DNA of 64,000 nucleotides, taken from positions 62,001 through 126,000 of the forward strand of contig VGNE01000001.1 of the NCBI GenBank assembly GCA_016866215.1, given 5' to 3'. Shown here piece by piece: positions 21,200-64,000 of this stretch. Under the pieces are notes generated by a model, which was given only the letters and a program-made list of their open reading frames with translations, did no database searches and had not been told where the DNA came from. A program made the position numbers and the translations under genes. This DNA comes from Chloroflexota bacterium (lineage in GTDB: Bacteria > Chloroflexota > Anaerolineae > Anaerolineales > Villigracilaceae). The stretch's first letter is position 1; every line of letters starts with the position of its first letter.

Positions 21200-22567
21200 C
21201 TACTCGACTACCATTCTCTTGAAAGTGTCAGGTGGCTGGCTCATGAAGAGTCTATTAATCCCAACTGCGCTGAGGCTTATAAGAAGAGGCATGACGGGGA
21301 TTAGAAAACGGAGCTGGCTTTCCACTGCCATATATGCCAGGCTGATTATGACTAAACTGCCCCACAAAGGCCAAGCCCTAAAGAAATTTCCCTTGCGCGC
21401 TCCCATCCATGCAAAAATCATCAAAACAACCTGCATCCCCATGATTACATAATCCCGGCGGGTTGCAAGATAAAGATAACCTTCGGGGATTTGCCAGTTG
21501 AACCAAAGCAGAAAAAAACGATACCCTGACGACAACATGTATTTGAAGGGGTGAGACCGGATTATTTTTATGGCCTCTGCCTTGTAGATTACATCCATCT
21601 GTGCTTCGTTTTCCATGCCGCTCAAGTCCTTTTTTCTTTCAACCAGCAGTTCTTGAACCGCTATCTTTCCATCCACTCCGTCAATAAAGTGGAGATAGTT
21701 ATCTGTCGTAAGCGCGTAGCTTTGACGGAAAATGTTATAACCAACCAGACTTGAACCTAACAGTGGGCGTCCGAGAGAAATTTGATTCCTCACGATCCAG
21801 GGTAACATAATCAGGAAAACCACCCCAAAGAGAATTAGCGAAGGTTTAATGATATCCAAAAGATTTCGGCCTTGACGCCATCTCTCGACGATCAACCCGC
21901 CCATTAGAATCGCGGGGATGGTTAAGATTGCAGAACGGGACAGTGCGCCCAGTCCCAACCCTGCTCCAGCGATGACCCAATCTTTAACACGATTTGTCTT
22001 CCTTGAACGCAGAACAAAAAGCATCCCGAAGGTGACAAAAAACGCGCCCAATAAATCACCAGAGACTTGCGGAATCAGATCAACAGCTGGCAGGTGGATT
22101 GTCCACAAGAATGCTGCGATCAGGGCCGCCCGTCTATTTACCCATTCGAGCGTAAGCAGATAAACGCATATCAGAACAGACAGATATATTAATAGCTCGA
22201 AGGCCGTCGCCGCCCATAAGGATTCATTGCTCAATTTGGCAACCAGGGCAAATAAGAGCACGGGCACCGGTTCGCGCGCGGCCGTGGTTTGGTTACCGAT
22301 CTCACAAAATGGAAAGTATCTGGGAATGCAAAGGCTATATCCCTGCCCGTGAATTAGATTCAAACTAATCACCCACCACGAATCGGTCGAACCAGATTCC
22401 ATGCTGGGCGGATCAGCTAATATTATTGTTGTACTCAGCAGAAGACCGAATAGTACGATCACCCCGAGAATGTGGATTGGATAGCGATTCATGATTTCAC
22501 CGGCTCGAGTCATCCAATACGCCCCGTGTTGTTTTAGAGATTGCCCTATTTGTTTGTATTGCGTCAT
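21200..22567 (-). CDS. Glycosyltransferase family 39-like membrane protein (ArnT/PMT fold)
   Basis: A 455-residue protein with about ten membrane helices. A first helix (ILGVIVLFGLLLSTTII) precedes a large outside loop with DSWW, and further helices follow (LLIYLSVLICVYLL; WVIAGAGLGLGALSRSAIL). The pattern of an acidic residue in the first outer loop and the LSR motif fits GT-C glycosyltransferases that use polyprenyl-phosphate sugars. Acceptor and sugar are unknown. Its start is 7 nt downstream of the AOR stop codon, so it may be cotranscribed with AOR by read-through. Confidence 0.7.
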   Translation of the reverse strand: MTQYKQIGQSLKQHGAYWMTRAGEIMNRYPIHILGVIVLFGLLLSTTIILADPPSMESGSTDSWWVISLNLIHGQGYSLCIPRYFPFCEIGNQTTAAREPVPVLLFALVAKLSNESLWAATAFELLIYLSVLICVYLLTLEWVNRRAALIAAFLWTIHLPAVDLIPQVSGDLLGAFFVTFGMLFVLRSRKTNRVKDWVIAGAGLGLGALSRSAILTIPAILMGGLIVERWRQGRNLLDIIKPSLILFGVVFLIMLPWIVRNQISLGRPLLGSSLVGYNIFRQSYALTTDNYLHFIDGVDGKIAVQELLVERKKDLSGMENEAQMDVIYKAEAIKIIRSHPFKYMLSSGYRFFLLWFNWQIPEGYLYLATRRDYVIMGMQVVLMIFAWMGARKGNFFRAWPLWGSLVIISLAYMAVESQLRFLIPVMPLLISLSAVGINRLFMSQPPDTFKRMVVE

Positions 22568-52113: not shown

Positions 52114-52365
52114 ATGCCAAAAGCATCTGCAAAAAAATCAGCGAAACCTGTTGAAGAATTATCATACGAGGAAGCTCTCACCGAACTCGAAGGTCTTGTC
52201 GCATCTTTGGAAGACGAGCAAAATCCTCTCGAAGATTCGATGAGGCTTTTTGAAAGGGGACAAGCCTTGGTGGCGCATTGCAGCGCTCTGCTTGAGTCTG
52301 CCCAACTCAAGGTCCAAAAACTCTCGGGCGAGTCGCTGATCCCCTTTGAAGAAGAGTCCGAATGA
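52114..52365 (+). CDS. xseB: Exodeoxyribonuclease VII small subunit
   Basis: An 83-residue helical protein that binds the XseA coiled coil in several copies per complex. The conserved core is LSYEEALTELEGLVASLEDE, then PLEDSMRLFERGQALVAHC. ATG at 52114 has ATGGAG 8 nt upstream and is preferred over the earlier in-frame ATG inside the repeat. Its stop overlaps the start of the next gene (ATGA), so the downstream YuiD-like protein is translationally coupled. Confidence 0.95.
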   Translation: MPKASAKKSAKPVEELSYEEALTELEGLVASLEDEQNPLEDSMRLFERGQALVAHCSALLESAQLKVQKLSGESLIPFEEESE

Positions 52366-52814
52366 TCATTGAACAATTGATCCAAAATAAAGTTTTATTC
52401 GCAGTGCTGTCCGGCTGGCTGATCGCACAGGCGTTGAAAATCCCTTTCGAGTATTTTCGCTCGCGTCGTTGGATGTGGGCGATGTTGTTTGCCCCAGGCG
52501 GCATGCCCTCTTCACATTCTGCCTTGATGGTTGCAGGGACTCTGGCTGTGGGTTTATATCATGGTTTTAACAACCCGATCTTTGCGATCGCTGTTGGCAT
52601 TACCATGATCGTCGTCCATGATGCCTCCGGCGTGCGCAGGCAGGCAGGTATGCATGCAGAGCGCATCAACCTGCTTTTTGAAGAATTATTAAAAGGCCAC
52701 CTGTGGGATGAAAACGAACTAAAGGAAGTGATCGGCCACACCCCGCTGGAAGTGATCGGCGGAATCATTTTGGGTTTACTGGTTGCGATCGTGCAGTGGC
52801 TGGTCTGGCCGTAG
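52362..52814 (+). CDS. YuiD/DUF212 family membrane protein (divergent PAP2 fold)
   Basis: A 150-residue membrane protein with about four helices. The family signature is GGMPSSHSALMVAGTLAVGL near residue 48 and MIVVHDASGVRRQAGMHAERIN near 87, then ELKEVIGHTPLEVIGGIILG. The SSHSA and Asp/Arg residues recall the active site of PAP2 phosphatases. Activity of the family is unknown, although a role on undecaprenyl or other lipid phosphates is plausible. It overlaps xseB by 4 nt and is convergent with murJ 6 bp further on. Confidence 0.85.
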   Translation: MIIEQLIQNKVLFAVLSGWLIAQALKIPFEYFRSRRWMWAMLFAPGGMPSSHSALMVAGTLAVGLYHGFNNPIFAIAVGITMIVVHDASGVRRQAGMHAERINLLFEELLKGHLWDENELKEVIGHTPLEVIGGIILGLLVAIVQWLVWP

Positions 52815-52820
52815 TGACAC

Positions 52821-54395
52821 TTAACTCCGTTTCAACCTTCTCAAAACCCCATTCGCAATATACGTCAATTCAGGCACTCGCAAAACATACAGCGCCGCGA
52901 GATAAACTCCGCTGCCAATGACGACGCCCACAAATGCAAGAATCCATGCACTGAGGTTATTTCCAAAATGCAGCCAGCCGAATAACGAAAGTCCCATGCC
53001 GAAGGCAGCGATCATGGATGGAATTACACCGCGCAAAATGTGACCGCCTTCGATGCCATTTAATCTCTTGCGCATAACAATAAATAATGCTGCGGCTTCG
53101 ACCGCGGTCGCAAATGAATTTGCTAGGGCGAGCCCGCCGTGCGGCATCCAGCCGATGGACGCAAATAATCTGGAGAAGGTAATGCTGAGCATGACGTTCA
53201 AACCCATCGCAATCGTGCCGATGATGACGGGGGTCTTTGTATCGTGTTGCGCATAAAAAGCGCGGGTCAATATCTCCATCACGGAATGTCCCACGATGCC
53301 CGCCGCGAACCAGAGCAATGCCCAGGCTGTTAGTTGAACATCCTGTTCGTCAAACTTACCTCGCTGAAATAAAAAGGAAACCAACGGCTCGCGTAAGAGA
53401 ATCAAGCCAACACTGGCAGGGATCGCCATTAACAATATCCCTCGCAATGAGGCGGCCAGCGACGCGCGCATTCCATCCTTCTGCCCCAGCGCATGTTGCG
53501 CCGAAAATGTGGGCATCGCCGCAATTGCAACGGATTGGGCTATCGCCGCCTGTGCCATGATCATCAACGAAAAACCATAGGAGAGGCTTGCCACACTGCC
53601 TGCGATCATTTGCGAAGCCAGCCGTATGTTCACCCAAAAATTTAGCTGCACCACTGCCACACCCAACAGGCGCGGTCCCATTAAGAAGATCACTTTACGG
53701 ACATGGGGATCATCCAGCCCAAAAGTAAAACTGTATGCGCCTCGTTGTTTGATCAATGTTGGAATTTGTAAAAGCAAATACAACGCCGCGCCGATCACCA
53801 CACCCCATGCCAGTCCGTAAATTCCCGTCGAAGGCGCGAGCATCACTGCGCCAAAAATGATCCCCAACTGATACATGGCGGGTGTCAATGCGGGCACAAG
53901 AAAAAATTTATGCGCGTTGAGAATGCCGACGATCAGCCCTCCCAGGCCAAACAAGACGGCTGAGATCAACTGAATGCGCAGCAGTGAAACCGTCAATGCG
54001 AAGAGTTCGGGCTTTTCAGAGAAACCTGGCGCAAGCGCGTAGCGCACCACTTGCGGGGCGAAAAATGCAAACATCAGTGCAAGCAGGCTGAGGCTCAGTG
54101 TGACCGCATTCGCCAATGCAGAAGCCAGCCGCCAGGCAGAGTCCCTTTCGTTTTTGGCAAGCAATCCGGTGAACGTCGGAATAAAAGCGGAGCCGAGCGC
54201 GCCGCCCGCCACCAGAAGAAAAAGGGTTTCACTGACGCGGTTCGCTGCCGTGAATGCATCCAACTCAGGCGAAGCGCCAAACGCGCCCGCCACAATGATA
54301 CTGCGCGCCAGGCCGGTAATTTGCCCAAGCACAATGGCGATCATCACCGTACCAGCCGCGCGCGCGATCTGTTGATTTGCATTTGATTCAGTCAT
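52821..54395 (-). CDS. murJ: Lipid II flippase MurJ (MviN)
   Basis: A 524-residue protein with about fourteen membrane helices. It starts IARAAGTVMIAIVLGQITGLARSI, a typical MurJ first helix, with FGASPELDAFTAANRVSETLF following. ALGSAFIPTFTGLLAK, then FFAPQVVRYALAPGF, LASSLRGIL and RAFYAQHDTKTPVIIG complete the family pattern. MurJ flips the peptidoglycan precursor lipid II across the membrane. It is monocistronic, convergent with the YuiD-like gene and divergent from a phospholipase D gene. Confidence 0.93.
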   Translation of the reverse strand: MTESNANQQIARAAGTVMIAIVLGQITGLARSIIVAGAFGASPELDAFTAANRVSETLFLLVAGGALGSAFIPTFTGLLAKNERDSAWRLASALANAVTLSLSLLALMFAFFAPQVVRYALAPGFSEKPELFALTVSLLRIQLISAVLFGLGGLIVGILNAHKFFLVPALTPAMYQLGIIFGAVMLAPSTGIYGLAWGVVIGAALYLLLQIPTLIKQRGAYSFTFGLDDPHVRKVIFLMGPRLLGVAVVQLNFWVNIRLASQMIAGSVASLSYGFSLMIMAQAAIAQSVAIAAMPTFSAQHALGQKDGMRASLAASLRGILLMAIPASVGLILLREPLVSFLFQRGKFDEQDVQLTAWALLWFAAGIVGHSVMEILTRAFYAQHDTKTPVIIGTIAMGLNVMLSITFSRLFASIGWMPHGGLALANSFATAVEAAALFIVMRKRLNGIEGGHILRGVIPSMIAAFGMGLSLFGWLHFGNNLSAWILAFVGVVIGSGVYLAALYVLRVPELTYIANGVLRRLKRS

Positions 54396-54431: not shown

Positions 54432-55544
54432 ATGAAAAAAATTTTAGCTCTGCTTTTTGTGATTTTGATTTTATTAAGCGCATGTAACTTAACGACCGCA
54501 ACGCCTCCAATCTCGCCGGCAGTTGACTCTGTTACCGAGGATCCTTCCGCCACGCTGATAGATATTCCCCTGGCCGCAGGTTACGGCGTGGATGGCGGCT
54601 GGTTTGAATTGTATTTTACGAATCCATCCAGCCCGCTTGCTTCACAAGAGACTGGCGGCATTGATGGCCCGCTTGTAGAAGCAATTGACTCCGCGCGGTT
54701 AAGCGTAGACGTTGCGATTTACAGCCTCAGTTTGAACAGTATCCGCGATGCCTTATTGCGTGCACAGGATCGCGGTGTGCAAGTCCGCATGGTGATGGAA
54801 AGCGATAATTTGGATCGCACCGACCCCCAAAAATTAGAAGAAGCAGGCATTCCCATTTTGGGTGACCGCCGCGAAGGACTGATGCACAACAAGTTTGTTG
54901 TGATTGATAATTCCGAAGTGTGGACAGGCTCGACGAACTTCACTGATTCAGGCGCGTATGAGGATAACAATAATATGATCCGCATCCGCTCGGTGAAGGT
55001 TGCTGAGAATTTCACCAAAGAATTCGAGGAGATGTTTGTTGACGATAATTTTGGAGACAAAATTGTTTCCGATACCCCAAATCCGCGCGTGACGATGGAC
55101 GGCACACCCGTTGACGTGTATTTCGCGCCAGACGACAACGTGCAAGCCAGACTAGTGGATATTATCAACAACGCGCAGGAGAGTATTTACTTTATGGCAT
55201 TTTCGTTCACGGCCGACCCGCTCGGACGGGCCATCCGCGCCCGAGCAGAAGATGGCGTAACTGTGGCAGGCGTGATGGATACCGAGCAGGTCAATTCCAA
55301 TATTGGCACTGAATTTGATCCATTTCGTCAGGCTGGGCTGGATGTATTCCGTGACGGAATCGAAGGCCAAATGCATCACAAGGTCATGGCCATTGATGAA
55401 AGTATTGTCATTTTTGGTTCTTACAATTTCACCAACAGTGCCGAAACTCGGAACGATGAGACTGTGCTTGTTATCTATAATAAAGATATTGCCGCACAAT
55501 TTATTGGTGAATTCCAGAGAATGTACACGCAAACACAGCGATGA
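54432..55544 (+). CDS. Phospholipase D-like lipoprotein (two HKD motifs)
   Basis: A 370-residue exported protein. The signal peptide MKKILALLFVILILLSAC has a lipobox with Cys18. Two HKD motifs are present: HNKFVVIDNSEVWTGSTNFTDSG near 155 and HHKVMAIDESIVIFGSYNFTNSAE near 312, which together make one active site. PLD-superfamily members act on phospholipids or nucleic acids. The lipoprotein anchor suggests a cell-surface role, for example as a nuclease. ATG at 54432 has GGGAGATTTCC 4 nt upstream. Confidence 0.9.
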   Translation: MKKILALLFVILILLSACNLTTATPPISPAVDSVTEDPSATLIDIPLAAGYGVDGGWFELYFTNPSSPLASQETGGIDGPLVEAIDSARLSVDVAIYSLSLNSIRDALLRAQDRGVQVRMVMESDNLDRTDPQKLEEAGIPILGDRREGLMHNKFVVIDNSEVWTGSTNFTDSGAYEDNNNMIRIRSVKVAENFTKEFEEMFVDDNFGDKIVSDTPNPRVTMDGTPVDVYFAPDDNVQARLVDIINNAQESIYFMAFSFTADPLGRAIRARAEDGVTVAGVMDTEQVNSNIGTEFDPFRQAGLDVFRDGIEGQMHHKVMAIDESIVIFGSYNFTNSAETRNDETVLVIYNKDIAAQFIGEFQRMYTQTQR

Positions 55545-58649: not shown

Positions 58650-59101
58650 CATGGCCTGCCGACTTCACATTCCGCTGATCATATTGAGCAGTGTACTCAA
58701 TGCATTGATGATGAGACGCTCGTCATTCAAGGCTTTGATCTCGGTGACGGAAGCGTGAACGTAAATATTTCTTTGCAGGATGTGTAGCCCATTTTGAAAC
58801 AAAAGAGAGTCAATGCTACTAAAGTATCGGTTCTTTTTGTATTTCAACTTCCACCCATCTTCTTACGGAATTAACCAAAAATACTTTTGAACATTTTGAC
58901 AATTCATCTTTGTGAATGGCTTGCTCCTTGATTTGATTTGTTTCAAGTAATTGAGCTCTAAATGTTCCGGCCAGCAATCCGCAGGACTGAGGAGGTGCGA
59001 AGAATTCACTATCCATATTAACGGCGAGATTGCCGGTGGTGAATTCAGTAAATATATTCCAATTACTGATATTATCTAAAAAATAAGGATTTGATATTAA
59101 A
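58650..59101. other. Gap with a pabC remnant and unrecognised sequence
   Basis: Between the HerA-like gene and the sulfotransferase, 58819-59060 holds the pabC remnant on the minus strand. Nearer the HerA gene, 58665-58847 on the minus strand is open and reads SVTEIKALNDERLIINALS, which I cannot place. The sequence is AT-rich and has no ribosome site before this frame. Confidence 0.45.
58819..59060 (-). pseudogene. 3' remnant of an aminodeoxychorismate lyase (PabC-like) gene
   Basis: On the minus strand the sequence reads NWNIFTEFTTGNLAVNMDSE, FFAPPQSCGLLAGTFRAQLL, then ETNQIKEQAIHKDELSKCSK and VFLVNSVRRWVEVEIQ. This is the C-terminal third of class IV aminotransferase-fold lyases (..PPLSCGLLPGT.R..LL..G.I.E.. 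and ..NSVRGW..V), as in PabC or PabBC fusions. The Lys-bearing first part is missing and the start is degenerate. No other folate gene is nearby. Confidence 0.7.
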
Positions 59102-59698
59102 ATGAATGACAAAAATGATACTGTTTACGTCGTTTCAGGCTTGCCTAGATCAGGAACGTCCATGATGATCCAAATACTCGAAGCAGGAGGGCTGCAAATA
59201 GTAACAGATAATATTCGCACATCGGATGATGATAATTTGCAAGGATATTATGAATTTGAACGGGTCAAGCAATTAAGGGATGGAGATGTGGAGTGGGTGG
59301 AACAGGCTAATGGAAAAGTTGTGAAAGTGATCTCCGCCCTCCTGAAATATTTGCCCGAAGATTATCGATATAAGATTATTTTTATGGAACGCGAGATGGC
59401 GGAAATCTTGTCGTCGCAGAAAAAAATGCTGGAACGAAGAGGAAAACCGGGCAAGCCTGATGAAGATGAGAAGTTTGCTGATCTTTATAAAAAACATCTA
59501 GACAAGGTGAAGAATTGGCTTTCACAGCAACCGAATATGGATGTCCTGTACGTTAAGTATAATGACCTGATGAAACACCCACAAACATACACTGTCAAAG
59601 TGGCTGAATTCCTCCAGGTCTCCCTGAATGTGCAAGCCATGGCCGATGTTCCGCAGGAACGTTTTTACCGTCAACGTAGCTCTGCTGTGCAGACCTAA
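59102..59698 (+). CDS. Sulfotransferase family protein
   Basis: A 198-residue P-loop protein. The PAPS 5'-phosphosulfate loop is VVSGLPRSGTSMMIQILEAG, followed by DDDNLQGYYEFERVKQLRDG, and the 3'-phosphate-binding region KIIFMEREMAEILSSQKKML with the conserved Arg/Ser. The C-terminal MDVLYVKYNDLMKHPQTYTV is typical. It is short compared with carbohydrate sulfotransferases (about 250-300), so it may be a small subfamily. The acceptor is unknown. ATG at 59102 has no clear ribosome site. Two alkaline-phosphatase-superfamily genes lie on the other strand nearby. Confidence 0.8.
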   Translation: MNDKNDTVYVVSGLPRSGTSMMIQILEAGGLQIVTDNIRTSDDDNLQGYYEFERVKQLRDGDVEWVEQANGKVVKVISALLKYLPEDYRYKIIFMEREMAEILSSQKKMLERRGKPGKPDEDEKFADLYKKHLDKVKNWLSQQPNMDVLYVKYNDLMKHPQTYTVKVAEFLQVSLNVQAMADVPQERFYRQRSSAVQT

Positions 59699-59948
59699 GG
59701 AATTTAATGCCTAAAAATTTTGTTACTACTCAGCCATGTGTCAGAAGGCCCTATATCTGGGGCTGATGCGTCTAATAATGCGAATTTCGCCATATATGGT
59801 TGCGCTATATCTGACCATTTCTACGGAAATCAGGCTGCCAACGCCACATATGCCGGTTTTCAGCGAAATAGGCTGAGTAGTTACAAAATTTTCTTGAATA
59901 ACCCTTAGCGGTTGTCATTATTCATGTCGATATAGGACAAGTACAATT
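59699..59948. other. Gap between the sulfotransferase and the Tat-secreted phosphatase gene
   Basis: AT-rich sequence without a recognisable gene. One 62-codon frame (59720-59908) reads ISGADASNNANFAIYGCAIS, with Asn/Ala-rich composition; it has no ribosome site and no family match that I can see. No terminator hairpin is evident for either convergent neighbour. Confidence 0.35.
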
Positions 59949-61484
59949 TTACAAATAAGGTTCGTCGGATTCTTTTAGTCTTGTTTTTATCACGTTTAAC
60001 AACTCTGATGCAGTTTCTTTTTTAGAAAGGGAAAGATCGATTAACTCTTCTGGATCTGTTTGAATGTTGAACAATTGGGTGCGTTCATTGTTTAAGTCAA
60101 GTTCTTCGTAGCCTCGATAGTAAACCAGTTTGTAGTTATCTTCCACAAGCATCACTGTGGCTCTCACCAGAGGCGCTGCTGGGTCGTTATATCTTGCCTC
60201 AACGGCGTAGATGCCCTTCTTGCCGAGAGGGGTGATCAAGGGTGCATAGGGAGGCAGGATGGAGCCTTCCGTCCATTCGGGGATATCATGACCGGTTACG
60301 TGCAGGAGTGTGGGCATCAAATCAATAGCGCTGGTTGGAGTATAAATACTTTGTCCTGATTGCTGCCCTGGCCCAAAGATCAGGAGGGGAACCCGAATGA
60401 CAGGTTGGTAGAAAGTAGGGGTTTCATGAGCCCATATACCGCGTTCGAACATTTCGCCATGGTCAGATGTGAAAACTACCCAGGTATTGTCCAGTATACC
60501 TGACGATTCCAATAAGTTAAATAACCGCCCAAATTCGCTATCTACATTGAGGATAAATTCATCGTAAAAAGCGCGCTGCTTGTGCAAAAATTCCTTTGAT
60601 TTGTCGTCAGTAAAGAGATCGTCTGGTTTGATTAATGACTTCCATGAATCATTGGCAAATTGCCCGGCATAATCACGATGTGGTTTATAGGGCCAATGGG
60701 GAGGTAAATAGTGAAAGTATCCAAAAAAGGGATGTGTAATATTTTTAAGACGATCCCCCGTCCAATCTATACCCTGTTGGAGGTTAAAATAATTGTCACC
60801 GTAGCTCTCCGGGAGTCCATATGGAAAAAACTCTAGAATGTCAGCCACCTTGTACTCACGGTATTTTTCGTATAAATGAGTTAGGAATAATGAGTAGGAA
60901 TATCCATCTTCTTTGTGCTTCATAATGCGAGTCCATGCAATGCTGGCAATATCTTCGTCCTTGCTGAAGAGATCTCGGATCAGGCTGTCACTAAATAGAT
61001 ATAGTTTTTCTTGAGGGACGTATTCATTGATGTCCTCCAGGAATTGTTTTAACAGTATATTAACCAATGGATTGTGTGAGTATGCAATGCGATGGTAGTC
61101 GGTGAAAGCATTGAATATATTTTTATTCGAAAAAGAGGTTTTTACTTTTCCATTGATTCGTATTGCGCGATGTGTCCAGGGAAGCATTCCTGTTAGTAGT
61201 GAGGCAGTGCCGGGAGTGGTGAAACTGCCGCTCGCAAAATGGTTATGATAAACCGTCGCTCTTTTTGCCAATCTGGTTAGGTTTGGCGTGGTCTCACGGG
61301 AGTATCCATACAGGGAAATGTTATAAGCCGAAAGAGCATCGAAGATAACTATGAGCACATTTTGTCTTTTACCTTGCAATATCCCTGGTATTCCAAGATA
61401 TTGAACAGACGGTGGGATTGCGATGCCAAGGGACATCAGACTGGCTAGTTTCAGAAAATCACGGCGACTCAATCCTTGATTCAT
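59949..61484 (-). CDS. Sulfatase/phosphotransferase-type alkaline phosphatase superfamily enzyme with Tat signal
   Basis: A 511-residue exported protein. A perfect Tat motif SRRDFLKLASLMSLGI starts it. The metal-binding start is IVIFDALSAYNISLYGY with the Asp ligand. The nucleophile region reads SGSFTTPGTASLLTGMLP, so a Thr stands where sulfatases have Cys/Ser (CxPSR). FTSDHGEMFERGIWAHE gives the metal-binding DH pair. With Thr it may be a phosphodiesterase or a phosphoethanolamine/phosphoglycerol transferase-like enzyme rather than a true sulfatase. It lies 2 nt after the upstream gene's stop in a minus-strand operon. Confidence 0.8.
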   Translation of the reverse strand: MNQGLSRRDFLKLASLMSLGIAIPPSVQYLGIPGILQGKRQNVLIVIFDALSAYNISLYGYSRETTPNLTRLAKRATVYHNHFASGSFTTPGTASLLTGMLPWTHRAIRINGKVKTSFSNKNIFNAFTDYHRIAYSHNPLVNILLKQFLEDINEYVPQEKLYLFSDSLIRDLFSKDEDIASIAWTRIMKHKEDGYSYSLFLTHLYEKYREYKVADILEFFPYGLPESYGDNYFNLQQGIDWTGDRLKNITHPFFGYFHYLPPHWPYKPHRDYAGQFANDSWKSLIKPDDLFTDDKSKEFLHKQRAFYDEFILNVDSEFGRLFNLLESSGILDNTWVVFTSDHGEMFERGIWAHETPTFYQPVIRVPLLIFGPGQQSGQSIYTPTSAIDLMPTLLHVTGHDIPEWTEGSILPPYAPLITPLGKKGIYAVEARYNDPAAPLVRATVMLVEDNYKLVYYRGYEELDLNNERTQLFNIQTDPEELIDLSLSKKETASELLNVIKTRLKESDEPYL

Positions 61485-61486
61485 GG

Positions 61487-62077
61487 TTAACCTCGAATAT
61501 TACGTATAAGGATAACGATCAGGGCGGCAAAATCGAAAAACAAATAGAGAGTCATGAGTAGGGAAAACTGATCCAGCCCATCTTTTATGAATTGATATGG
61601 TTTCTTTAATTGCAATATCAGATATGATGGGATAAGAAACGTCGAAGCTAGAAGGGAAAAAGTAATCGCATATATAGATCTTAATGGATGTGTAAACCCG
61701 ATAATAATATTGATTACCTGTGGTGGCGGAGATACTTCCATGAGGAAATACAAATGCGAAACCATCGCCCAGATAGATAAGATAATTATAAAAAGACTTA
61801 ACAGGGTAATCCGTCTATTTTCTTCCCATTTTTTTGAGACCAAAAATCCAAGAATCACAATGATAATAAAGACAACAATACTCTCTATCAGGGCGTAAAT
61901 CAGACCATAGGATAGGACCCCAATCGAATCCCAGGAATTTGTTCGGTCAGAGACCCAGGAAAAATCACGGAAAGCAAGGACGAAAGTCCAGATGTGAAAC
62001 GGTAACGCACACATCAAGAACAGTGACTTTAATCCCTGCCCGGAATAAAACCTGGCGTGTACGTTAGAGGTAGCCAA
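61487..62077 (-). CDS. Small membrane protein of unknown function
   Basis: A 196-residue protein with about five hydrophobic segments: LFLMCALPFHIWTFVLAF, ALIESIVVFIIIVILGFLV, ITLLSLFIIILSIWAMV, ITFSLLASTFLIPSYLIL and LLMTLYLFFDFAALIVIL. It has no recognisable motif. It overlaps the alkaline-phosphatase-family gene upstream by 14 nt and is followed after 2 nt by the second one, so it is probably made with them and acts in the same membrane process. Function unknown. Confidence 0.6.
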   Translation of the reverse strand: MATSNVHARFYSGQGLKSLFLMCALPFHIWTFVLAFRDFSWVSDRTNSWDSIGVLSYGLIYALIESIVVFIIIVILGFLVSKKWEENRRITLLSLFIIILSIWAMVSHLYFLMEVSPPPQVINIIIGFTHPLRSIYAITFSLLASTFLIPSYLILQLKKPYQFIKDGLDQFSLLMTLYLFFDFAALIVILIRNIRG

Positions 62078-63884
62078 GATCCTTCAACCGTTTCTCAACA
62101 TCTTTTTGATCTTCGTCACTGTATGAGGGTGGCGGAAGGGAGTATTGGGATTTCAAATCTTTGCCTAATGTGATAGCGGGTATATTCAGATAGGAGGGCA
62201 TTGGCCAGTTGGTGAGTCCGTCCGTTGAAAAAATCACACCGGGCACTGCGTTGGAGTTAAAACAATGATCGGCCCCCCAATGTTCCCGGTTGCTTTGGAT
62301 TGCTTCATTCTTCCACTGACCTAGTCCCGTTTCCGCCGAACCGCGGTAAGGCGGTTGATAACCGATAAATAAATCGGGGCCATGTTCCGCGAGCGGTCCC
62401 TGGAATACTTCGGATCGAATCAAAATTTTTTGAACGACTTGTCCACCGTCAGGACCTTTCCATCGAAGTAGTTCTTCTTTTAATTTGTTTGGAAGGTTGA
62501 TGCTTTGGTCTTCAGAAACCTGACCTTTGCCTTCTCTCCCGACGATATTCAGATAAAGACTATTCAAGCCCAAAGCGTATGCATGGGTCTTTGACCAGTC
62601 AACATTTTTGAGATCGCCTGAGTCGGATGCGTTATCTGTTGACATATAGCCGTGGTCGATCAGCCAGCGATTTAGATGCACCTTGTAATCAAACCTGCCA
62701 AAGCCGTGATCGGATAGAATGAGTACTTTGGTATTGTTCCTTCTAGATGTCTTTTCAAGAATTCGCCCGATCAATCGGTCGAGTTTGATATACCATGCCT
62801 CAAGCACATCCTCTCTGCCTTTCCAGAACATGTGTTGCACTCGATCCAGGCTGTCGAAGACACAAGCAAGCAGACCTTCATCGAAGGTATTCAAAGAGCG
62901 AGTTAGCACGCGTTCTCGTTCATCATCGATCATTTCACATAATCTCAAGAATTGATTATCATTGATGAAATCCTCGTTGAGGGCGGTGGTATCCTGAGGC
63001 CAGCCAAGTGTAAGGAATGGGCCGCTTGATTTCCACTGATCTTGAATGAATCTCTTCGGTGTGCTATAGGGCCATGGTGAGGAAAGCGGATGGAGTTGAA
63101 GCGGTAGAAAATACAACCCTACTGGGTCCAAACAAGTTAGGATGGCGCGGCTTATCGCCTTGACGGTCATTCCAAAGCCGACAGAGAATGGCAATTCAAA
63201 GATTTCACTCCATTCGCCGTGGATTAGTTTGATCCTTTGTTTTCCAATACGCAATGTTGCAGACTGTTTAACATCAATTTCTAGCTCGAAACTGATGTTA
63301 ACATTTCCTTCCTTATTAGCCGGGCCTTCCAACATGCCTGAATATTGGGATGCGCTTTTCTTTGCCAAAAGACGGATTGGGGTTTTTCGATCTAAATTTA
63401 TAGATTGTTGTTCGGGCGAAAAATAGACACCTACACCAAGACGACCAAGAATATCAGGTGTGCCAAGTCCTGGGATCGTCTCAACTGGTGATGCGTGGCG
63501 GGCTGGAAAGGTTGCGGGCCACCAAAGGGATGTTGCAGGGTAGCCGTCGTTAACCACCTCGTCAAAGATCGTCCGGGCGTTGTAAGGAGGAATAAATTTG
63601 GTACCAAGCAAGTTTTTTTGGGTTGGTAGCAGGGAAACCTGCAGACTGTAATTGGAAGGGTTGCGATGCACAAAATCAAACAGCCCGTGGACTCCCGGGT
63701 TCATGCCGGTTGCGATACTGGTCCAGGATACTTCGCTTTGCGGAGGATCGGCTACTTGGAAGCGAGAATAGCCCCCTGACTGAACAAGTTTGCTCAGGTT
63801 TGGGGTTTTGCCTTTTGAGTGAAGTTGTTCAAAAAAGAGTGGATCAAATGCATCCAGACCAATAATAAGGGTACGCATAAACAT
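62064..63884 (-). CDS. Type I phosphodiesterase/nucleotide pyrophosphatase family protein
   Basis: A 606-residue alkaline phosphatase superfamily enzyme. It begins TLIIGLDAFDPLFFEQLHSKG with the first metal Asp, and has the nucleophile region SEVSWTSIATGMNPGVHGLF (Thr or Ser), then KVLILSDHGFGRFDYKVHLN (second metal site, DHGFG) and GADHCFNSNAVPGVIF. The length and order fit the 'predicted AP superfamily' phosphodiesterase group often found in polysaccharide loci. No signal peptide is visible, so it may work in the cytoplasm. The start may be the ATG 6 nt downstream. It lies 12 nt after the partial gene's stop. Confidence 0.85.
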   Translation of the reverse strand: MFMRTLIIGLDAFDPLFFEQLHSKGKTPNLSKLVQSGGYSRFQVADPPQSEVSWTSIATGMNPGVHGLFDFVHRNPSNYSLQVSLLPTQKNLLGTKFIPPYNARTIFDEVVNDGYPATSLWWPATFPARHASPVETIPGLGTPDILGRLGVGVYFSPEQQSINLDRKTPIRLLAKKSASQYSGMLEGPANKEGNVNISFELEIDVKQSATLRIGKQRIKLIHGEWSEIFELPFSVGFGMTVKAISRAILTCLDPVGLYFLPLQLHPLSSPWPYSTPKRFIQDQWKSSGPFLTLGWPQDTTALNEDFINDNQFLRLCEMIDDERERVLTRSLNTFDEGLLACVFDSLDRVQHMFWKGREDVLEAWYIKLDRLIGRILEKTSRRNNTKVLILSDHGFGRFDYKVHLNRWLIDHGYMSTDNASDSGDLKNVDWSKTHAYALGLNSLYLNIVGREGKGQVSEDQSINLPNKLKEELLRWKGPDGGQVVQKILIRSEVFQGPLAEHGPDLFIGYQPPYRGSAETGLGQWKNEAIQSNREHWGADHCFNSNAVPGVIFSTDGLTNWPMPSYLNIPAITLGKDLKSQYSLPPPSYSDEDQKDVEKRLKDLGYL

Positions 63885-63896
63885 TCAAAATAAAGG

Positions 63897-64000
63897 TTAT
63901 TGATCAGATTCAGATTGCTTTTCTGACGTTTTGATTTCCTCATTCTTTTTTCGCAAGGTTCGGCGTAGTTTTGCGATGCCCATCTTAATCCTACTGGAAA
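63897..64000 (-). CDS. C-terminal end of an unknown protein (cut by the window)
   Basis: The minus strand from the window end reads SSRIKMGIAKLRRTLRKKNE then EIKTSEKQSESDQ and stops at TAA (63897-63899). It is a charged, probably helical C-terminus. The gap to the phosphodiesterase gene is 12 nt, so this is the next gene upstream in the same operon. The product cannot be identified. Confidence 0.6.
   Translation of the reverse strand, partial: SSRIKMGIAKLRRTLRKKNEEIKTSEKQSESDQ

Follow-up and report, generated by a model that had tools for sequence, protein, structure and literature searches.

The phosphoethanolamine transferases EptA and MCR, which are fused polypeptides, and YejM/PbgA have a threonine nucleophile in a fold of the alkaline-phosphatase superfamily. 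LtaS-type enzymes consist of five membrane helices followed by an extracellular domain with a threonine nucleophile and, according to the passages of PMC4192460 that deal with them, are required in full length in vivo; the relevant part of PMC7576196 likewise reports that the activity of YejM depends on its domain of five transmembrane helices. In both LtaS and YejM a single chain comprises the membrane part and the catalytic part, and what the membrane part contributes is presented in those passages as still open (PMC4192460, PMC7576196). Here we consider a stretch of Chloroflexota DNA, called the window (64,000 nucleotides, positions 62001-126000 of contig C1, in a genome of 3.74 Mb and 128 contigs), in which two such parts may be encoded by separate neighbouring genes, one for a five-helix membrane protein (TM) and the other for an enzyme of sulfatase fold (ALKT). 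Together with a phosphodiesterase gene (PDE), a small single-helix gene (SMALL) and a sulfotransferase gene (ST), they form a self-contained, conserved module of five genes, which is a new form assembled from known kinds of enzyme; no such system or module was found in the open-licence literature searched. Our reading, which we regard as evenly poised between right and wrong, is that the module modifies the cell envelope: TM and ALKT would constitute a split, exported phosphotransferase resembling LtaS, EptA and YejM, acting with a membrane-tethered PDE and an ST dependent on 3'-phosphoadenosine-5'-phosphosulfate (PAPS) on the same envelope glycan or lipid.

The gene order SMALL-PDE-TM-ALKT with a convergent ST recurs in the nearest relatives that we found in the public genome collection, namely the loci L005 and L006 of Chloroflexi metagenome-assembled genomes (MAGs), and because they repeat it the gene set is not a chance grouping. 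The two loci belong to genomes of the same genus (G219 and G205), so that the profiles A1-A4 are genus-level, and their proteins are 75% (PDE), 52-54% (TM), 59-61% (ALKT) and 62-65% (ST) identical to those of the window.

ALKT and its membrane partner

ALKT passes the Pfam Sulfatase model PF00884 with 143.4 bits, and its residues R7, R8, D49, T89, H258, H263, D315, D341, H342 and H353 are invariant in all 30 rows of the alignment. Thr89 aligns with the Cys of the sulfatase motif C-x-P-S-R, the Arg of which is replaced by Thr in 29 rows and by Val in one; the Cys or Ser expected of S1-type formylglycine sulfatases in this motif is therefore missing from every row. The genome of the window has nine stretches matching PF00884, two of them within ALKT, and, with three partial matches (L139-L141) left out of the comparison, the four other full-length proteins of this family carry Cys at the position of Thr89 (as judged by eye for L135). 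Because Thr replaces the motif Cys in ALKT while the other full-length sulfatases of the same genome keep it, a formylglycine sulfatase is an improbable identity for this enzyme, and a Thr in the place of the nucleophile speaks for phospho-chemistry rather than for the hydrolysis of sulfate. An earlier interpretation of this DNA from its letters alone, henceforth the sequence-only reading, had argued the same from the Thr and is borne out by the 30 rows and by the Cys of the other sulfatases; the formylglycine motif that might have lain elsewhere in the protein was not found in ALKT, the place of the motif being taken by Thr. As read from the alignment, T89 with D341, H342 and D49 reproduces the threonine nucleophile and Asp-His metal ligands of LtaS, EptA and YejM. 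The protein begins with SRRDFLK, a motif resembling the signal for twin-arginine translocation (Tat), in which the twin Arg at positions 7-8 is present in 30/30 rows.

TM has five hydrophobic stretches and no Pfam match. When Lys and Arg residues are counted over 11 homologues, the N-terminus has 35 and loops 2 and 4 have 33 each, against 13 each in loops 1 and 3, from which a topology with the N-terminus inside and the C-terminus outside is predicted. All of these homologues share Trp84 and, within the second helix, Glu65. A Pfam scan of the 11 TM proteins gave scattered weak matches, the commonest being Pox_A14 (2/11, best E 0.00075), which we treated as due to chance.

The two genes travel together. 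In the four genomes included both in the ALKT search and in the wide TM search (G000, G061, G089 and G148), which scored at most seven and eight candidates per genome, respectively, all 11 TM copies listed lie 12-30 bp upstream of an ALKT, and 11 of the 13 listed ALKT copies are so paired. Five TM-ALKT pairs are among the copies listed for G089, and the pair is multiplied in some relatives: at least five ALKT copies occur in G089 and at least six in G148, several of them as TM-ALKT pairs far from PDE (including L038). At the loci fetched for closer comparison, TM stands within 200 bp of 24 of the 30 ALKT frames; L198 adds a 25th, in which the overlap of the frames from stop to stop exceeds the limit used, and the remaining frames with no TM within 200 bp are L213, where an ALKT fragment lies between, and four extra copies (in L199, in L206 and two in L038).

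How does this pair compare with the fused enzymes? With LtaS and LtaP, synthases and primases of lipoteichoic acid, it has in common five membrane helices, a sulfatase-like catalytic domain that in ALKT is presumably extracellular as well, a threonine nucleophile and Asp-His metal ligands, and with YejM a membrane domain of the kind reported, in the relevant part of PMC7576196, as necessary for activity. LtaS and LtaP are described as one fused polypeptide (PMC4192460, in the passages concerned), whereas here there are two genes, the catalytic one with a Tat-like start; TM and ALKT are separate frames, and no frame with both matches was seen at the loci viewed. Moreover, the first metal ligand of LtaS is given as Glu255 in the pertinent section of PMC7576196, whereas in ALKT it is probably Asp49, and the similarity of ALKT to LtaS is low (31.2 bits, cut-off 970). 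We propose the split-enzyme reading because TM and ALKT, as two genes, reproduce the LtaS/YejM arrangement of five helices and a catalytic domain.

PDE, SMALL and the sulfotransferase

PDE passes the Pfam model Phosphodiest, PF01663, with 102.6 bits (cut-off 23). Among 28 aligned rows, position 50 is Ser in 14 and Thr in 13, the last row having a gap where it is cut at the N-terminus, and D344, D347, H351, D392, H393 and H540 are invariant in all 28. PDE has in this way the score, the nucleophile and the two-metal ligands of type I phosphodiesterases of PF01663, a family that includes the NPP-type enzymes, although its match to NPP1 chains is weak (best E 0.00041). It differs from NPP-type phosphodiesterases in having no hydrophobic signal and in being preceded by a small single-helix gene. 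No hydrophobic stretch was found in PDE, which is expected to lie on the cytoplasmic side, and PDE and ALKT seem to be on opposite sides of the membrane.

At 27 of the 28 loci where PDE scores strongly (>=600 bits), the gene immediately upstream of it is SMALL; the remaining locus is truncated by the end of its contig. The SMALL protein starts with MYIDPNSGGMLFQ... and has one hydrophobic helix in 62 amino acids; its Pfam score for LapA_dom, 24.0 bits, is below the cut-off of 28. In L007 and L008, from two other MAGs, the latter of Phycisphaerales, a helix with 'AYIGPGAG' and a basic stretch, which resemble SMALL, precede the PDE domain in the same frame. A fusion of the two genes in such bacteria is suggestive at most, as the SMALL profile scores 7.7 bits in L008 (E 0.52), which is not significant.

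PAPS-dependent sulfotransferases have a conserved Arg/Ser motif forming the site of the 3'-phosphate. ST scores 44.6 bits with Sulfotransfer_3 (cut-off 27) and 42.5 bits with Sulfotransfer_1 (cut-off 22), and its residues R16, S17, G18, T19, S20, R97 and S105 are invariant in 25/25 rows, so that family score, P-loop and the Arg/Ser pair are all present. As for the supply of PAPS, the genome of the window encodes one adenosine-5'-phosphosulfate (APS) kinase domain. At 4 of 29 loci viewed elsewhere in the class, relatives of ST adjoin a fused ATP-sulfurylase/APS-kinase gene, identified with Pfam in L096 and by eye in L100, L104 and L108; at L094, the neighbour is a gene of the inositol-monophosphatase family (Pfam), which could be a phosphatase for 3'-phosphoadenosine-5'-phosphate. 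Taken together, these signs give good support to the prediction that ST uses PAPS as a genuine sulfotransferase. In the relevant part of PMC9723792, two Chloroflexi MAGs are reported without a sulfotransferase.

The presence of ST follows closely that of PDE. Among 57 genomes of the genus, PDE (E<=1e-40) occurs in 24 and ST (E<=1e-20) in 26: 24 genomes have both, two have ST alone, none has PDE alone and 31 have neither (Fisher p 4e-14, uncorrected for relatedness). Restricted to genomes with completeness of 90% or more and contamination of no more than 5%, the figures are 13/32 for PDE and 14/32 for ST. The sequence-only reading had supposed a functional link between ST and the phosphatase-fold genes, and the co-occurrence of PDE and ST in the genus speaks in its favour. 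By position, 24 of the 28 strong-PDE loci include ST, which in 12 of them is on the opposite strand beyond ALKT and in the other 12 on the same strand, where ten copies lie within 91 bp of PDE or slightly overlap it and two are about 2 kb away. At the four loci lacking a local ST, the gene is found elsewhere in the genome (G181, G145, G167 and G203; the contig of G203 ends soon after TM). The order of genes at these loci shows SMALL-PDE and TM-ALKT as tightly linked pairs, with ST tied to PDE in its distribution among genomes and, for the most part, in its location.

Outside the genus, where some searches scored a part of the first-look candidates per genome and copy numbers are lower bounds, a class sample of 199 genomes has PDE in 16 (E<=1e-40), TM in four, ALKT in seven (E<=1e-60) and ST in 63. 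In a phylum sample of 400 genomes searched with a wider TM profile, TM was found in ten, all belonging to the window's own family; the class sample adds TM outside that family in G145, G167 and G181.

The genes are listed in Table 1. ST and, on the minus strand, PDE, TM and ALKT are all open reading frames where the sequence-only reading had placed them and as it had described them, SMALL being added as the fifth gene. TM and PDE overlap by 14 bp, and a gap of 2 bp separates TM from ALKT.

Table 1. Features of the module and its immediate flank (positions in the window unless a locus is named)
Feature	Position	Strand	Description
pabC-type 3'-end remnant	58846..59052	-	69 amino acids; found by tblastn; outside the proposed mechanism
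ST	59102..59698	+	198-amino-acid P-loop sulfotransferase; PRSGTS loop, conserved R97/S105
ALKT	59949..61484	-	Enzyme of sulfatase fold; Tat-like N-terminus; Thr89 in the place of the nucleophile; probably a phosphodiesterase/phosphotransferase that is exported (predicted)
TM	61487..62077	-	Five-helix membrane protein, TTG start, predicted N-in/C-out; regular neighbour of ALKT
PDE	62064..63884	-	Alkaline-phosphatase-superfamily phosphodiesterase, Ser50 at the nucleophile position, without hydrophobic signal
SMALL	63897..64000 (3' part only in the window); start at about 64085; gene at L003:7898-8086	-	62-amino-acid single-helix protein, MYIDPNSGG...

Surroundings and inheritance of the module

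The sequence-only reading had placed these genes at the edge of a surface-polymer locus expected to continue beyond 64000. What lies there is SMALL, a pabB-pabC fusion (pabBC) and a VanZ-like gene (Pfam), followed by genes recognised by eye as scpA, moaC, moaE, a GNAT-type gene, fabF, rplS, a gene of glutamine-amidotransferase type, murI and others; from 64000 to the end of the contig, about 13 kb, no glycosyltransferase or flippase was recognised, mostly by eye, and the idea of a polymer locus at this place is not upheld. The other flank has a HerA-like ATPase, a lipoprotein with phospholipase D (PLD) domains, MurJ and a PAP2-like gene. Within 10 kb on that flank, no genes of envelope type were recognised other than MurJ (52821-54395) and the PAP2-like gene (52362-52814), and MurJ, a flippase of peptidoglycan type, is the sole exception to the lack of flippases, glycosyltransferases and exporters within this distance. 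The nearest confirmed glycosyltransferase, a PMT_2 protein at 21200-22567, is 37 kb off, the rest of the window having been surveyed by eye and with Pfam on chosen frames. In L005 and L006, relatives of the PLD-like lipoprotein (54432-55544, plus strand), at 34-35% identity, are likewise no farther than about 4 kb from ST.

Neighbours unrelated to polymers, which would have spoken against a polymer as target, are thus largely what the window has; the loci of relatives go part of the way in the other direction. We viewed by eye the neighbours of 21 loci with the whole or part of the module and ran 17 chosen neighbour proteins against Pfam, by which glycan genes were confirmed at five of the 21. 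In L039, PDE, TM and ALKT are followed by an ABC-2 permease (ABC2_membrane), an ATPase with Wzt_C and glycosyltransferases including GT4, and the locus also holds a second sulfotransferase and a second PDE. Near the module there are Bac_transf and Wzy_C in L208 (a further gene at L208:2245-3780, of glycosyltransferase-like appearance, has no Pfam match), GT4, WecG and Wzy_C in L209, and PMT_2 in L206; L041 has GT4 and a UDP-GlcNAc 2-epimerase (Epimerase_2) near a more distant PDE with ST and no TM match. At the remaining loci no comparable glycan set was recognised by eye, Pfam having been run on few of their genes. These neighbours support a link with polymers without deciding it. On balance, we consider phospho-chemistry and modification of the envelope likely but a polymer locus in this part of the genome unlikely, and the extracellular polymer that the sequence-only reading had proposed as target stands as likely once extended to an envelope polymer or lipid.

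In evolutionary terms, how did the module come to lie next to pabBC? The remnant beyond ST (Table 1) shares 72% identity with the intact pabBC found upstream of the module, as if the genes had been inserted there by a mobile element; at the other pabBC-linked module loci, no separate tail was found beyond ST, and in L197 pabBC is in two frames. The groups in the trees of PDE, ALKT and ST largely agree with those in the pabBC tree, even if several forks are weak and the pabBC tree has ten rows. Because the trees resemble that of pabBC and the other loci have no tail, inheritance with losses and moves fits better than a mobile insert, and the module seems mainly to have followed the chromosome in its inheritance, with loss from many lines; the pabC tail suggests a local duplication or rearrangement. 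By eye, the loci L205, L206, L207, L208, L210 and L212, from members of the genus, have a phosphoglycerate-mutase-like gene near PDE/ST or TM/ALKT, and mutS or a gene for an FAD-linked oxidase often flanks the set in the same loci. Repeats at regular spacing in L069:12970-13456 look by eye like part of an array of clustered regularly interspaced short palindromic repeats (CRISPR).

Proposed mechanism, alternatives and meaning

In the mechanism that we propose, SMALL, with one helix, a short outer N-terminus and a basic inner C-terminus, would hold PDE at the inner face of the membrane, where it may work as a two-metal phosphodiesterase, while ST would sulfate a glycan or lipid precursor on the inner side, using PAPS. 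Outside, TM in its N-in/C-out orientation and the exported ALKT would work as a split enzyme of LtaS/EptA/YejM kind: Thr89 would attack a phosphodiester, such as that in the head group of a phospholipid, to give a phospho-Thr intermediate, from which the phospho-group would pass to a surface glycan or lipid, or be released, so that adding and removing are both allowed. The pairings and the Thr are read from the sequences, and from them we infer the TM-ALKT complex, its putative substrate and the direction of the reaction. More tentatively, as a possibility to which we give somewhat less than even weight, the pair may be a split two-gene transferase, nearly confined to one Chloroflexota family in the sampled genomes and present in up to five pairs per genome, that builds with PDE and ST a surface polymer or glycolipid modified with phospho- and sulfo-groups.

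Several results weigh against this picture. The last five residues of TM are basic (13 K+R and no D+E over 11 homologues), which speaks against an outer C-terminus; compared with solved structures, the TM profile matched a TRAP permease alone (E 0.034), which we treated as chance, and no sequence link with a membrane domain of LtaS, EptA or YejM was seen; a common origin of TM and the membrane regions of two fused proteins of sulfatase fold in L041 was not supported either, with an hhalign probability of 0.2. The score of ALKT with the Tat model of NCBIfam is 14.7, under the cut-off of 16.7. Among NCBIfam enzyme models, ALKT comes closer to choline-sulfatase, at 122.5 bits, and to PehA hydrolase, at 101.3, than to YejM (39.7), EptA (35.1) and LtaS, all five scores being below the cut-offs (433.45 for choline-sulfatase, 825 for YejM, 660 for EptA, 970 for LtaS); the curated models thus do not place ALKT with LtaS, EptA or YejM, and it differs from the last two in falling far below their limits. 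Structure predictions from three-row alignments, with mean pLDDT (predicted local distance difference test) of 47 for TM and 32 for ALKT, were too poor for use. Glycan genes were seen near the module at just the five loci mentioned out of the 21 viewed, and in L206 by the common family PMT_2 alone. In three class-level relatives (L035, L036 and L039) the module has no ST beside it, and the co-occurrence counts are not independent, since the genomes are related, some of those of the genus being 53-90% complete.

The scores of ALKT would fit a different enzyme, a secreted hydrolase of phosphoesters or phosphonate esters, of the PehA or phosphonate-monoester-hydrolase sort, which would scavenge or trim phosphate with TM as a mere anchor and without transfer. 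Choline sulfatase, PehA and phosphonate monoester hydrolases are indeed nearer to ALKT in overall sequence than LtaS or EptA. Their nucleophile is a formylglycine made from Cys or Ser, whereas ALKT has Thr89 in 30/30 rows and a five-helix partner gene, the conservation of which across paralogous pairs seems more than an anchor requires; we consider such a hydrolase unlikely, though deserving real weight. A formylglycine sulfatase that, in concert with ST, would let a polymer gain and lose sulfate in turn would agree with PF00884 as the best family, with choline-sulfatase as the best NCBIfam score and with the position of ST beside ALKT, and is nevertheless highly improbable: Thr stands at the Cys/Ser position throughout, the motif Arg has become Thr or Val, the four other full-length sulfatase-fold proteins of the genome keep Cys, and the choline-sulfatase score is well short of its cut-off. 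Could catalysis instead have been lost or changed, leaving TM-ALKT as a sensor or regulator, as some authors argue for PbgA/YejM? Whether that protein is an enzyme is disputed in print (in the part of PMC7576196 concerned with it), yet the candidate nucleophile and metal residues D49, T89, D341 and H342, with H258, H263 and H353, are invariant in all rows, unlike a decaying site, and we find a sensor distinctly improbable.

For ST, it may be asked whether the gene is independent and a neighbour of the PDE/ALKT run by accident. Its location on the other strand in the window, its varied neighbours elsewhere and its greater frequency than PDE in the class sample (63 against 16 of 199) would agree with this. 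Set against them are its presence in all 24 genomes of the genus that have PDE, its absence from 31 of the 33 that do not, and its closeness to PDE on the same strand (within 91 bp or slightly overlapping) at 10 of 28 loci, so that an accidental neighbour has little probability.

Returning to the envelope-modification module, its interest would lie in the separation of two parts that are joined in the described enzymes. A naturally split version of them, if true, lets the membrane and catalytic parts be studied apart. To our knowledge, the envelope chemistry of this Chloroflexota lineage is poorly known, and the module would, if our reading is correct, provide a candidate set of genes for the decoration of its cell surface with both phosphate and sulfate.

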